Of a stretch of DNA of 39,460 nt, positions 24,009 through 29,055 are shown piece by piece. The position numbers and the translations under genes were made by a program. Numbering within the stretch: the first letter of the stretch is position 1; the number at the start of each line of letters is the position of its first letter. The notes under the pieces were generated by a model. That model searched no databases and was not told where the DNA came from. It saw only the letters and a program-made list of their open reading frames with translations. The DNA is from Thermodesulfovibrio sp. N1 (GTDB taxonomy: Bacteria > Nitrospirota > Thermodesulfovibrionia > Thermodesulfovibrionales > Thermodesulfovibrionaceae): positions 1 through 39,460 of the forward strand of contig NZ_MAVV01000014.1 of the NCBI RefSeq assembly GCF_001707915.1, given 5' to 3'.

Positions 24009-24042
24009 AAAAAATCGTAATACAGCTTTGCACTGCATTACG
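24009..24042 (-). promoter_or_regulatory. Terminator-like hairpin in the qmoA leader
   Basis: On the minus strand CGTAATGCAG (24042-24033) pairs with CTGTATTACG (24025-24016) around seven bases and is followed by a six-T run. It lies after the apr terminator and 34 bases before the qmoA start, so it could be a second terminator, an attenuator or a regulator site. Confidence 0.55.
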
Positions 24043-24075
24043 AACTTTTATTTTAAATCAAAAACCAAAATTTTA

Positions 24076-24114: not shown

Positions 24115-26103
24115 TTAGTCTGGAATGATCTGGACGTATGGGACTTTCTTAAGCGTAAATGTATCTGTTGCTGGATCATACACTGAGTTGACAAATGCAC
24201 GCCAGTTGTTGTCATCAACAAAGTCAAAGTCTCCTCTGTAGTAGTAACCAGGATATCTGGATTCTTCTCTGAAGAGGATATGTCTTGCATGGGCTTCAAG
24301 GGAGAGTGTTCTGTGGTAGTTCTCCCAGCAGCGGAGAAGCTCATGGAGATTTGCTGCTGCAAGTCTTGCTGCATCCTCTTTGAGCATTTGAAGTTTTCTT
24401 AATCCTTCTTCAATCATGGTCTTAGATGTCATATACCATGTTCCAATTCCACCAAAGTACTCATCAGCAATCTTCTGAAGTCTTGCCTGATACATTTCTG
24501 GCTTTATGTAGTATGGGTTAACCTTAGGATCAGTAGAATAGGTTTTGTATTTTTCATAAAGTTCAAATGGTAGATAGAGTTCAGCAACAAGGGCATTTAT
24601 ATCCTCAGCAATTGTTGGTGTATAGTTAGGATTGTCAAGGATGAATGCGATTGCTGCTTTTGCTGCTATTCTACCTTCTGCGTGAGAACCTGAGGAGAAT
24701 TTATGTCCAGAGGCTCCAACAATGTCTCCAGCCATAAAGAGTCCATTTACTGTACTCATTCTGTTGTAACCCCAGAACCATTCAGCTGGTGCTCCAGGAA
24801 TGTCTCCAGGTCCACTTACCCAGAAACCTGCGCAACCAGCGTGTGAGCCAAGAAGATAAGGTTCTGTTGGCATAATTTCGGATGGAGACTTATCTGGTTC
24901 TACATTGTTAGCTGCCCAAAGTCCTGCCTGGGAGATACACATGTCAAGGAAGTCTTCCCATGCTTCAGCTTCAAGATGTTTAAGCCTCTTGGCATCCATC
25001 TGCTTTGCAAGCTCTTGCATTGCGGTGTGGGTATTCATAAGGATTGGACCTCTACCCTGCTTCATTGCCTGCATCATAAGATGGTTTCTGATAGCTGTTC
25101 CAAGAGCCTCTGCCCATTTACCATATTTCTTTACAGCATCCTGGAATTCTGGTGTGTCTTTTGCACAGTAATCATTTCCAAGAGCATCGCTTGCTTTTGC
25201 TTTGAAGAATAGGAACCATGCTCCAACAGGTCCGTATCCATCTTTAAATCTTGCAGGAACAAATCTATTTTCCATCATTGTCATTTCTGCGCCAACACTC
25301 ATACCAAGATAATATCCTGAACCTGAGTTCCATACTGGATACCAAGCTCTACCCATACCTTCACGGGTTGATCTTGGTCTGAATACATTAACAGCACCAC
25401 CTGAAGCATTAAGAATTGCTTTTGCTTTGAATAAATATACTTTATTCTCTCTTACGCTAAAACCAATTGCGCCTGCTACTCTATTTGGCTCCTTTGCATC
25501 TTTGAGAAGTTTAACTATGAATACTCTCTCAAAGTGATTCTGAGGGATATTGAGAGCTTTTCTATTGTATTCAAGGGCTGCTTTTCCGGCTTCAGCAACA
25601 ATAACCTTATAGGATTCACCGTTAATCATGATCTGCCATTTTCCTGAACGGCATGGAACTCCACCATCTTTGAGCTTTGGCTTACCCTGATCTCTTGCCT
25701 GGAAGCCATCTAATGACCAACCATCGTCACTCTTTTTCCAAATTGGAAGACCCCATTCCTCAAACATGTGAACGGAGTTGTCAACATGTCTTCCAAGGTC
25801 AAAGACAAGGTCTTCTCTAATAATACCCATAAGGTCTGCACGGACATATCTAACATAGTCCTCAACCTTATTCTCACCAATGTAGGTGTTAATAGCACTC
25901 AAACCCATTGCAACCGCACCAGAACGGTCAGTTGCTGCCTTGTCCACCATTGTTACTTTAAGTCCCTTTGGTGTTGCCCATCTGCATGCTTCAAATGCAG
26001 CACCACAAGCAGCCATTCCACCACCGATTATAAGAAAATCGGTATCAATTTCAATTACTTCTGGTCTCTGACAGTATGAAAATGTGCAAGTCTCTTTTTC
26101 CAT
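24115..26103 (-). CDS. aprA: Adenylylsulfate (APS) reductase subunit alpha
   Basis: A 662-residue FAD-containing subunit of dissimilatory APS reductase, which reduces APS to sulfite and AMP in the cytoplasm. The N-terminal dinucleotide motif is IDTDFLIIGGGMAACGAAFEA. Typical family segments include VDKAATDRSGAVAMGLSAIN, PYLLGSHAGCAGFWVSGP and EESRYPGYYYRGDFDF near the C-terminus. The length is normal for AprA. The start follows GGAGG at 10 bases. It is the last gene of the adk-sat-X-aprB-aprA unit, 28 bases after aprB, and a terminator follows. Confidence 0.96.
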   Translation of the reverse strand: MEKETCTFSYCQRPEVIEIDTDFLIIGGGMAACGAAFEACRWATPKGLKVTMVDKAATDRSGAVAMGLSAINTYIGENKVEDYVRYVRADLMGIIREDLVFDLGRHVDNSVHMFEEWGLPIWKKSDDGWSLDGFQARDQGKPKLKDGGVPCRSGKWQIMINGESYKVIVAEAGKAALEYNRKALNIPQNHFERVFIVKLLKDAKEPNRVAGAIGFSVRENKVYLFKAKAILNASGGAVNVFRPRSTREGMGRAWYPVWNSGSGYYLGMSVGAEMTMMENRFVPARFKDGYGPVGAWFLFFKAKASDALGNDYCAKDTPEFQDAVKKYGKWAEALGTAIRNHLMMQAMKQGRGPILMNTHTAMQELAKQMDAKRLKHLEAEAWEDFLDMCISQAGLWAANNVEPDKSPSEIMPTEPYLLGSHAGCAGFWVSGPGDIPGAPAEWFWGYNRMSTVNGLFMAGDIVGASGHKFSSGSHAEGRIAAKAAIAFILDNPNYTPTIAEDINALVAELYLPFELYEKYKTYSTDPKVNPYYIKPEMYQARLQKIADEYFGGIGTWYMTSKTMIEEGLRKLQMLKEDAARLAAANLHELLRCWENYHRTLSLEAHARHILFREESRYPGYYYRGDFDFVDDNNWRAFVNSVYDPATDTFTLKKVPYVQIIPD

Positions 26104-26131: not shown

Positions 26132-26560
26132 TTACTCTTTTCTGGCTTCATAATTGAAATAGCCAGGACCTTTAATTTTTGAATAATCTGGTTCAGGAAG
26201 ATCTTTATAAATAGTATCAGCTGTCCAGTAACCCTCAGGTGTAAGTCTTATTGGGAATTTGAATCTCTTAATAGAGCCATTTCTGAACTTAATAGTCCAC
26301 ATAATGGCATCCTGACCTCTCATTGGAATAACGCTTGCACCGAGTGGGAAGAAGTCTGCATAACCTCTAATTTCGATTGCCTGCTGTGGGCATATCTTTA
26401 CACAGTTGTAACATTCCCAGCACTGATCTGGCTCCTGGTTAAAGGCTTTCATTTTTTCTCTGTCCAGAGTCATAAGATCATTAGGACAGATGTACTGACA
26501 AGCTGTCTTGTCTTGGGCTTTGCAGCCGTCACATTTTTCAACCATTACAAAACTTGGCAT
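26132..26560 (-). CDS. aprB: APS reductase subunit beta
   Basis: A 142-residue ferredoxin-like subunit. The two [4Fe-4S] clusters are held by CDGCKAQDKTACQYICPND and CWECYNCVKICPQQAI, the spacing typical of AprB. It passes electrons to the AprA flavin and probably receives them from QmoABC. The C-terminal tail wraps AprA in known structures and is present here in normal length. The ribosome site is AAAGGAGG. It lies 27 bases after the unnamed gene. Confidence 0.96.
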   Translation of the reverse strand: MPSFVMVEKCDGCKAQDKTACQYICPNDLMTLDREKMKAFNQEPDQCWECYNCVKICPQQAIEIRGYADFFPLGASVIPMRGQDAIMWTIKFRNGSIKRFKFPIRLTPEGYWTADTIYKDLPEPDYSKIKGPGYFNYEARKE

Positions 26561-26587: not shown

Positions 26588-26992
26588 TTATGCTGGTTTT
26601 TGTACTGGATTTTTCTGTAATTCCAGCACATCACTGATATCAATATCAGGAACAGGAAGTTCTTTGTCTTCCTTTGCTGCTTCCTCTTTTACTTTATCGA
26701 GGTCTTCAGCAAGAACCTTTTCTACTACTGCTGCTGATAACTCTTTCATTTCAGCAATTCTTTTGAATATTGCTCTCTTAAATGCTGCAGGAGTTTCCTC
26801 AATAAATCCTCTTGCATCAAATCTTGCCTTTGTAAACTGGTCAATAACTTTCTGCCCAAGGTCATCGGGAACTTCAATAACTAATCTTCTTAATGCTCCA
26901 CCAAAAATGGATTCAACTTTTTCCTCCAGGGGGGTACCCTTTATAGCTGCCATTCTTTTTTCATCAATTATTACGCCTAAATATTTAGCCAT
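26588..26992 (-). CDS. Uncharacterised 134-residue protein encoded between sat and aprB
   Basis: A soluble protein with no signal peptide, no helices that span membranes and no cysteines. It opens MAKYLGVIIDEKRMAAIKGT, has a middle rich in charged and hydrophobic residues (IFGGALRRLVIEVPDDLGQK, FTKARFDARGF) and ends in an acidic, proline-containing tail. It has a strong ribosome site (AGGAGGTGA) and lies 12 bases after sat and 27 before aprB, so it must be co-expressed with them. I recognise no catalytic motif. An assembly, regulatory or scaffold role in sulfate activation is possible but only inferred from position. Confidence 0.85.
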   Translation of the reverse strand: MAKYLGVIIDEKRMAAIKGTPLEEKVESIFGGALRRLVIEVPDDLGQKVIDQFTKARFDARGFIEETPAAFKRAIFKRIAEMKELSAAVVEKVLAEDLDKVKEEAAKEDKELPVPDIDISDVLELQKNPVQKPA

Positions 26993-27004
26993 TATTCACC
27001 TCCT

Positions 27005-28390
27005 TTATTTTTTTAAATGAGCTGGAAGTTCCATATGAGGGAGATCTACCTCTAATCTCTCCTCTCTCTCTTTTAGATACTTCTCATTGTTAAATGGATA
27101 TCCAAATTTCTGCCACCATTTTACAACAACCTTGTAAACTTCTGGTCTGTAAATCTCTGGAGGTGGCATTACACCTTCATTAATAAGTCCTCTGATAAAG
27201 CTTCCAGAGTATCTGGAGTAAATTCCTTTATGTGAGCAGTTTGCTGAATAGGCAAACTCTTTACATTTTGGACAGAACCAGAACTCTTCAATGTTTTGAG
27301 GTCTTATATAGAAACCACCATCAACTGCATATGGTGGAGCATCAAATCCAAAGCTTGGAATACCCTTGGACCAGAGAATCTGGGTTGCAAAGATATCATA
27401 ATACTCACCCAATGCTGCATGGTCTCTTCCAAACATATGGAAGGAAATTCCCATGTTCTGCCTGATTACCGCATGAATCAGAGATTCTATTGGATTTCCA
27501 TATCTCATATCCCAGAGTGTAAAGGTTACAAGATGACGCTCTGGTTTAATGTAACCAGCAAGATGAACCATTTCATGACCTTCAACAATTGCTTCATCTG
27601 GAAAATCACCAATTCTTTTTGCACCAACTATTGCGTTGACAACAATACCATCACAAGGTTTAATATCGCCAATGTATGCAGCATTTTTCATCAAGGCTTC
27701 ATGGCCTGTATGTGGAACATTTCTTGTCTGGTGAGCAATAACTGTTGTCCATCCTCTCTTTTCAAATTCTTCTCTTGCTCTTTTTGGTGGATACCAGAAT
27801 CTATCAAAGGGTGGTCTCAACTTTGGCTCATTAATTATTGTGTATTTTCCAGCAAGAATTATTGGATTTAATGAGCAGTAAATATTGTATCCTGTATGCT
27901 TCTGATCAAAAGGAACTTTTACAACTTCAGGATTTTTCTCAGGTGTTCCGAAGGTTCTTACTGCAACATCACCTGGTACTATTTCATAAACTTCTTCAAT
28001 TTCAAGAATTGCAAAAGGTTCACCCTTAAGTCTGATAAGAAGCCAGTCACCTGGTCCTACACCTAATTTCTTGAAATCTTCCTCAGAAATATCAAAAAGA
28101 ATTGGATAGGGGAATACCCATCCACTTAAGAGTCTTCTTTTTTCAAGAACACTTTCAAGTTCAGCCTTTGTCATAGAACCTTCAACAGGGCTGAAGAATC
28201 CATAACATACTGACATGATTTCTCTGTAAACATTTCTTACTGGATTGCCTTTAAAAAGTGTTGGCTTAATGTCATAAACTGCAGAGCATTTTTCCATCAA
28301 TTTTCTTGCCATCTGTGGGTCACGGACAACCCTGTCAACAAGCTTTCCACCATGAGGCGGTGGTAGAGTTTTAATTCTTACTTCCGGCAT
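27005..28390 (-). CDS. sat: Sulfate adenylyltransferase (ATP sulfurylase)
   Basis: A 461-residue homo-oligomeric type ATP sulfurylase that forms APS and pyrophosphate from sulfate and ATP. Active-site motifs are AHQTRNVPHTGHE (Q-x-R-N and H-x-x-H) and GRDHAALGEYY. A zinc site typical of thermophilic dissimilatory enzymes is visible in CPKCKEFAYSANCSH (C-x2-C-x8-C-x-H). There is no APS kinase domain. The start follows AAGGAGGG, 17 bases after adk. As the first committed step of sulfate respiration it is expected to be strongly expressed. Confidence 0.96.
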   Translation of the reverse strand: MPEVRIKTLPPPHGGKLVDRVVRDPQMARKLMEKCSAVYDIKPTLFKGNPVRNVYREIMSVCYGFFSPVEGSMTKAELESVLEKRRLLSGWVFPYPILFDISEEDFKKLGVGPGDWLLIRLKGEPFAILEIEEVYEIVPGDVAVRTFGTPEKNPEVVKVPFDQKHTGYNIYCSLNPIILAGKYTIINEPKLRPPFDRFWYPPKRAREEFEKRGWTTVIAHQTRNVPHTGHEALMKNAAYIGDIKPCDGIVVNAIVGAKRIGDFPDEAIVEGHEMVHLAGYIKPERHLVTFTLWDMRYGNPIESLIHAVIRQNMGISFHMFGRDHAALGEYYDIFATQILWSKGIPSFGFDAPPYAVDGGFYIRPQNIEEFWFCPKCKEFAYSANCSHKGIYSRYSGSFIRGLINEGVMPPPEIYRPEVYKVVVKWWQKFGYPFNNEKYLKEREERLEVDLPHMELPAHLKK

Positions 28391-28407: not shown

Positions 28408-29055
28408 TTACTTTTTTTCTAAGATTGCACAGATACTATTAAATATCTCATCTATATTACCTGTGCCTGATACACTATTAAGAATTGCTTTTTTAGAATA
28501 ATATTCAATTAGTGGCTCTGTTTGAGCTTTATATACCTCTAATCTTTTTCTTATAGTTTCCTCTTTATCATCATCTCTCTGAAAGAGTTCGCCACCACAT
28601 TTATCACATTTACCCTCTACTTTCGAAGGTGAGTAATAGACATTGTACATTTGACCACAGGACTTACATGTTCTTCTTCCAGTAAGCCTTTTCATCAAAT
28701 CATCAAAAGGAACATCCAAATTTAATGCAAGGTCTAAAGGCATATTCATTTCAACAAGTATCTTATCAAGGGCCTCAGCCTGAGCAACATTTCTTGGAAA
28801 ACCGTCAAGAATAAAACCTTTTTTACAATCATCCTGAGAAAGCCTCTCTTTTACCATTCCAAGAACAACTGAATCTGGAACAAGTTCACCCCTATCCATA
28901 TATGACTTAGCTTCTTTACCAAGGGCTGTTCCTGCAGCAACTGCTGCTCTAAGAAGATCACCTGTGGATATCTGAGGGATACCATATTTTTCTACCAATC
29001 TTTTTGCCTGAGTTCCTTTCCCCGCACCCGGTGCACCTAAGAATACTAGTCTCAT
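28408..29055 (-). CDS. adk: Adenylate kinase with zinc-binding lid
   Basis: A 215-residue long-form adenylate kinase. The P-loop is FLGAPGAGKGTQAKR; the AMP site is ISTGDLLRAAVAAGT and FILDGFPRN; the lid carries a zinc finger, CKSCGQMYN and CDKCGGELF, as in Gram-positive and thermophilic enzymes. It starts after an AAAGGAGG site. Placed first in the sulfate-reduction unit, 17 bases before sat, it can turn the AMP released by APS reductase plus ATP into ADP. That coupling is inferred from the gene order. Confidence 0.95.
   Translation of the reverse strand: MRLVFLGAPGAGKGTQAKRLVEKYGIPQISTGDLLRAAVAAGTALGKEAKSYMDRGELVPDSVVLGMVKERLSQDDCKKGFILDGFPRNVAQAEALDKILVEMNMPLDLALNLDVPFDDLMKRLTGRRTCKSCGQMYNVYYSPSKVEGKCDKCGGELFQRDDDKEETIRKRLEVYKAQTEPLIEYYSKKAILNSVSGTGNIDEIFNSICAILEKK

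Follow-up and report, generated by a model that had tools for sequence, protein, structure and literature searches.

DUF6955, encoded between sat and aprB in Thermodesulfovibrio sp. N1, is probably an accessory protein of one clade of ATP sulfurylase

In Thermodesulfovibrio sp. N1, sat and aprB are separated by a small gene for a DUF6955 protein, which we consider likely, with some room for doubt, to be a dedicated accessory protein of one clade of ATP sulfurylase (Sat), probably acting on the mobile C-terminal domain of the enzyme. Because DUF6955 tracks one Sat branch, a role as helper of Sat is more likely than one linking Sat to APS reductase. The window denotes the whole 39,460-nucleotide stretch of DNA that was analysed.

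The frame at 26588-26992 of the window lies on the minus strand; the same coordinates read on the plus strand contain many stops. The called ORF encodes a type I DUF6955 protein (P0001) of 134 aa, 15.0 kDa and a pI of about 5.1. The distance from the sat stop codon to its ATG was 12 nt and that from its own stop codon to the aprB ATG was 27 nt, exactly the gaps given in an earlier note on this DNA; the excellent ribosome site that the note described was also found, as the strong sequence AGGAGGTGA directly 3' of the sat stop codon (27004-26996, minus strand). Against six close relatives, dN/dS of the ORF was 0.007-0.14, and the substitutions fell mostly at third positions. The gene was present in every same-genus genome of at least 90% completeness among those searched. 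Within the genus its dN/dS reached up to 0.14 versus 0.04 for Sat and 0.055 for AprB, showing faster evolution than both. By the ORF call, the Pfam match, genus-wide presence and dN/dS, this is a real gene under strong purifying selection.

On the minus strand the gene order was adk (adenylate kinase, 28408-29055), sat (27005-28390, 461 aa), the DUF6955 ORF, aprB (26132-26560), aprA (24115-26103) and two qmo-type oxidoreductases, and the neighbours called as ORFs were confirmed by Pfam. A terminator-like hairpin, identified by consensus match only, follows the 3' end of aprA (24015-24043, minus strand), and the same type of consensus scan found no such site in the gaps among sat, the DUF6955 ORF, aprB and aprA; sat, DUF6955 and aprBA are therefore probably carried on one transcript. 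The adk gene directly before sat was also observed in other Thermodesulfovibrio genomes and several other Nitrospirota, and an adenylate kinase at this place would recycle the AMP produced by APS reductase.

The earlier note had stated that the protein lacks any known motif. This was incorrect, as the protein matched Pfam PF22271 (DUF6955) over its full length with an E-value of 1.4e-27 (96.2 bits, cut-off 27), and 22 of 22 rows of alignment A4 matched it as well. The Pfam entry gives no function, and no paper in the literature searched uses the name DUF6955. A single-protein structure model of fair quality (pLDDT 83.9, pTM 0.78) predicted a strand-helix-strand core followed by three C-terminal helices. 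No PDB sequence matched the protein, a Foldseek search of the model against PDB and viral models returned nothing below an E-value of 0.5, and viral contigs contained no relative. Charged residues, among them D59 and K83, are conserved from one DUF6955 type to another.

The distribution of DUF6955 was determined in about 200 Nitrospirota genomes, 250 genomes of the archaeal phylum holding Archaeoglobaceae and 300 Thermodesulfobacteriota genomes, of which 19, 24 and 58, respectively, carried it above the cut-off. Among the Thermodesulfobacteriota carriers, AprB was present in 56/58 (Fisher p = 2e-24) and Sat likewise in 56/58, and 63 genomes of this phylum had AprB without DUF6955. A broader profile built with all three subtypes recovered these 58 genomes and no more; no relatives had thus escaped the Pfam model. 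The Sulfolobus acidocaldarius control genome matched DUF6955 and ATP-sulfurylase, but not AprB. Judged by the AprB counts, DUF6955 homologues are nearly restricted to sulfate respiration.

A total of 110 distinct relatives were found, 94 of the sat-linked kinds (types I and II) and 16 of type III. Type I proteins, including that of the window, have about 115-135 aa and end in an AKE..PxP tail; those of type II have about 100 aa and carry DSATTKSIELLP. Both types lie behind sat: 92 of the 94 genes were found directly behind it on the same strand, and the remaining two were cut by contig ends. An aprB gene lay within 1.2 kb in 63 of these 92 loci and was absent from that range in 29. The earlier note had rightly placed the gene with the sulfate genes, and the alternative it allowed for, homologues mostly away from such genes, is contradicted by these counts and by AprB in 56/58 carriers (p = 2e-24). 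None of the 16 type III genes (about 107 aa) adjoined sat. Seven type III loci of Thermodesulfobacteriota (L162, L165-L168, L171 and L173) placed the gene upstream of dsrAB-like genes, recognised from protein sequence without a profile search; outside these seven loci it lay among unrelated genes. The stretch between the type III gene and the dsrAB-like genes often encoded two further proteins, one of 113 aa and a TPR-like one of 207 aa. Where sampled, genomes with only type III had Sats of the other (non-DUF6955) clade, and in G644 and G738 type III was present alongside a sat-linked copy. Two sat-DUF6955 pairs each were observed in G536, G569 and G598, one of each type in G536 and G569. An apparent Sat-DUF6955 fusion in L091 (a 558-aa open frame) was discarded, its extra part being a wrong-frame GC-rich ORF.

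In a maximum-likelihood tree of 109 Sats, computed by a quick method and with L091 counted as a carrier, all 44 DUF6955-linked Sats fell in one clade, including that of the window, and the gene accompanied none of the 65 others. The branch separating this group, called the D clade, had an SH-aLRT value of 100. Since D-clade Sats had come mostly through DUF6955, the reverse relation was checked by unbiased Sat searches. Among the matches listed, seven doubtful DUF6955-free Sats all belonged to the other clade, and no D-clade Sat lacked DUF6955 where its flanking sequence was visible; a G062 Sat without a visible DUF6955 gene fell in the D clade, but on a contig that stops within sat. Thus, among the matches listed and with contig-edge cases unseen, DUF6955 was present with every testable D-clade Sat and absent with others. 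Among the other-clade Sats lacking DUF6955, some stood directly before aprB, and a sat-aprBA cluster can thus function in its absence. The Nitrospirota genome G021 (L197) has two Sats, a D-clade Sat that forms a pair with DUF6955 at a distance of about 10 kb from aprBA, and one of the other clade, without DUF6955, beside aprB.

In a mirror-tree analysis of 60 loci, DUF6955 distances correlated with those of Sat at 0.95 and with those of AprB at 0.45, the partial correlations being 0.94 and 0.19; neighbouring genes may score high through linkage by itself, but aprB is a neighbour too. The partial correlations within type I were 0.77 with Sat and 0.20 with AprB, and those within type II were 0.69 and 0.24. 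Compared with the window, the Thermodesulfobacteria loci L021, L023 and L188 showed 88-92% for Sat, 72-74% for DUF6955 and 65-66% for AprB, and L014 showed 83% for AprB, 44% for Sat and 25% for DUF6955. The sat-DUF6955 pair has therefore moved without aprB in both directions, and DUF6955 is inherited and transferred with sat.

The D-clade Sats are themselves distinctive. The window Sat has PUA_2 and ATP-sulfurylase domains with the QxRN, HxxH and GRDH motifs. Its active-site loop HQTRNVPHTG (codons 220-229; 27704-27733, minus strand) is a clade-specific variant of QxRNP in the Sat alignment: all D-clade Sats have V for P, reading QTRNV. They also have R for K in the GxxKxxD loop and I for an otherwise invariant R at window Sat position 268. 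The tail after RPE comprised 36-47 residues in D-clade Sats versus a median of 15 in others, and a PF-x3/4-Y motif was present in it in 41/44 D-clade Sats versus 0/53 others. In the window this tail (codons 432-461; 27008-27097, minus strand) is a candidate docking site. The QTRNV reading is contrary to the published view of a strictly conserved QxRNP loop, and a sequence search of PDB made no D-clade Sat structure evident.

In other Sats, a fused fourth domain touches domain III at helix 12 and has an influence on the reaction; domain III and a mobile loop lie at the APS/PPi site, and domain III moves when the site closes (PMC3779200). From these published data and the D-clade tail, we infer that DUF6955 binds Sat, most likely at the C-terminal tail and mobile domain III. 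It would then be a separately encoded counterpart of the APS-kinase-like fourth domain of fungal and Aquifex Sat, which follows Sat at its C-terminal end and exerts its effect on domain III (PMC3779200). In this role DUF6955 may keep the Sat oligomer stable and modulate how the APS/pyrophosphate site opens and closes, in favour of sulfate activation. The likeness is one of analogy only: DUF6955 is a separate, smaller gene, and Pfam, PDB-sequence and Foldseek searches gave no APS-kinase homology or fold match. Sat with DUF6955 would also resemble the heterodimeric ATP sulfurylase CysD/CysN in having a second subunit. CysD has no relationship to Sat and CysN is a GTPase, whereas Pfam found no GTPase motif in DUF6955. 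A read-through Sat-DUF6955 AlphaFold model, built on a shallow alignment, gave pLDDT 45 and pTM 0.33, with Sat itself unfolded. Against the Sat-accessory model, adjacent genes can be co-inherited without contact, DUF6955 evolves faster within the genus, and type III is never beside sat. A homo-oligomer of A. fulgidus Sat is reported to be active, and basic activity may thus not require the partner.

DUF6955 might instead dock Sat to AprAB, with APS passed directly between them, a channel that the earlier note had proposed and that we regard as quite improbable. Such a bridge would fit the position between sat and aprB in 63/92 loci and AprB in 56/58 carrier genomes of one phylum, but 29/92 pairs have no aprB nearby, residual co-evolution with AprB is nearly nil (partial r 0.19), and S. 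acidocaldarius has Sat and DUF6955 without AprB. Moreover, 63 AprB genomes manage without DUF6955, the G021 pair is remote from an aprBA that adjoins another Sat, and other-clade Sats directly precede aprB with no DUF6955. Pfam also found no FeS or FAD domain, looked for as a test of an AprA/AprB relation. The note's further suggestion was help in assembling Sat or AprAB; a link to Sat is strong (44/44 in the clade, r 0.95), but a role in AprAB assembly is not supported (partial r 0.19, 29/92 without aprB).

It is unlikely, though less so than the bridge, that DUF6955 is a sensor or regulator that takes a small molecule (APS, PPi, AMP or sulfite) as its ligand and modulates the flux of sulfate respiration, types I and II acting on Sat and type III on the Dsr branch. 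The seven type III genes upstream of dsrAB, the genomes holding sat-linked and type III copies together (G644, G738) and the charged positions D59 and K83 conserved across types are consistent with this reading, but no known ligand-binding family or fold was detectable in DUF6955. Least probable of all is a non-essential small gene hitch-hiking in the sat operon: linkage does move the genes of one operon together, and DUF6955 evolves faster than its neighbours, but it is under strong purifying selection, is kept in every D-clade Sat locus with visible sequence in archaea and bacteria among the matches listed, and has a matching Sat-specific tail.

According to locus numbers in published descriptions, exactly one gene lies between sat and aprB in strain N1 (THER_0839-0836), T. 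yellowstonii (A1835-A1832) and A. fulgidus (AF1667-AF1670) (PMC5165239, PMC5812927, PMC8359953). The passages concerned name sat and aprAB and pass over the intervening gene, and A. fulgidus sat and aprAB are described as highly expressed. From the numbering and the Archaeoglobaceae and Thermodesulfovibrio loci analysed here, we infer that the intervening gene in all three clusters is DUF6955. The same arrangement was considered for Desulfotomaculum and rejected, as D. reducens sat and aprB are numbered consecutively, with no gene between them (PMC4759654). Sat is usually taken as a homo-oligomer without partners and without separable classes (PMC3779200). The papers searched contained no description of the Sat-clade linkage, the Sat-specific tail or the three DUF6955 subtypes.

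Beyond the accessory role, we tentatively propose, at somewhat less than even chances, that the D-clade Sat is a two-component enzyme belonging to a deep branch of dissimilatory ATP sulfurylase that has gone unrecognised. It would consist of a tailed Sat with modified active-site loops and an obligate DUF6955 gating subunit of a fold not seen in PDB; the pair would move as a unit between archaea and bacteria, separately from aprBA, and the sulfite-reductase branch would be served by a paralogue of DUF6955. Sat catalyses the energy-costly entry step of sulfate respiration. If the proposal is true, at least two kinds of Sat are in use among sulfate reducers, a gene of the operon that genome papers leave unmentioned would be accounted for, and DUF6955 would provide a simple marker to trace the transfer of sulfate activation apart from APS reduction.
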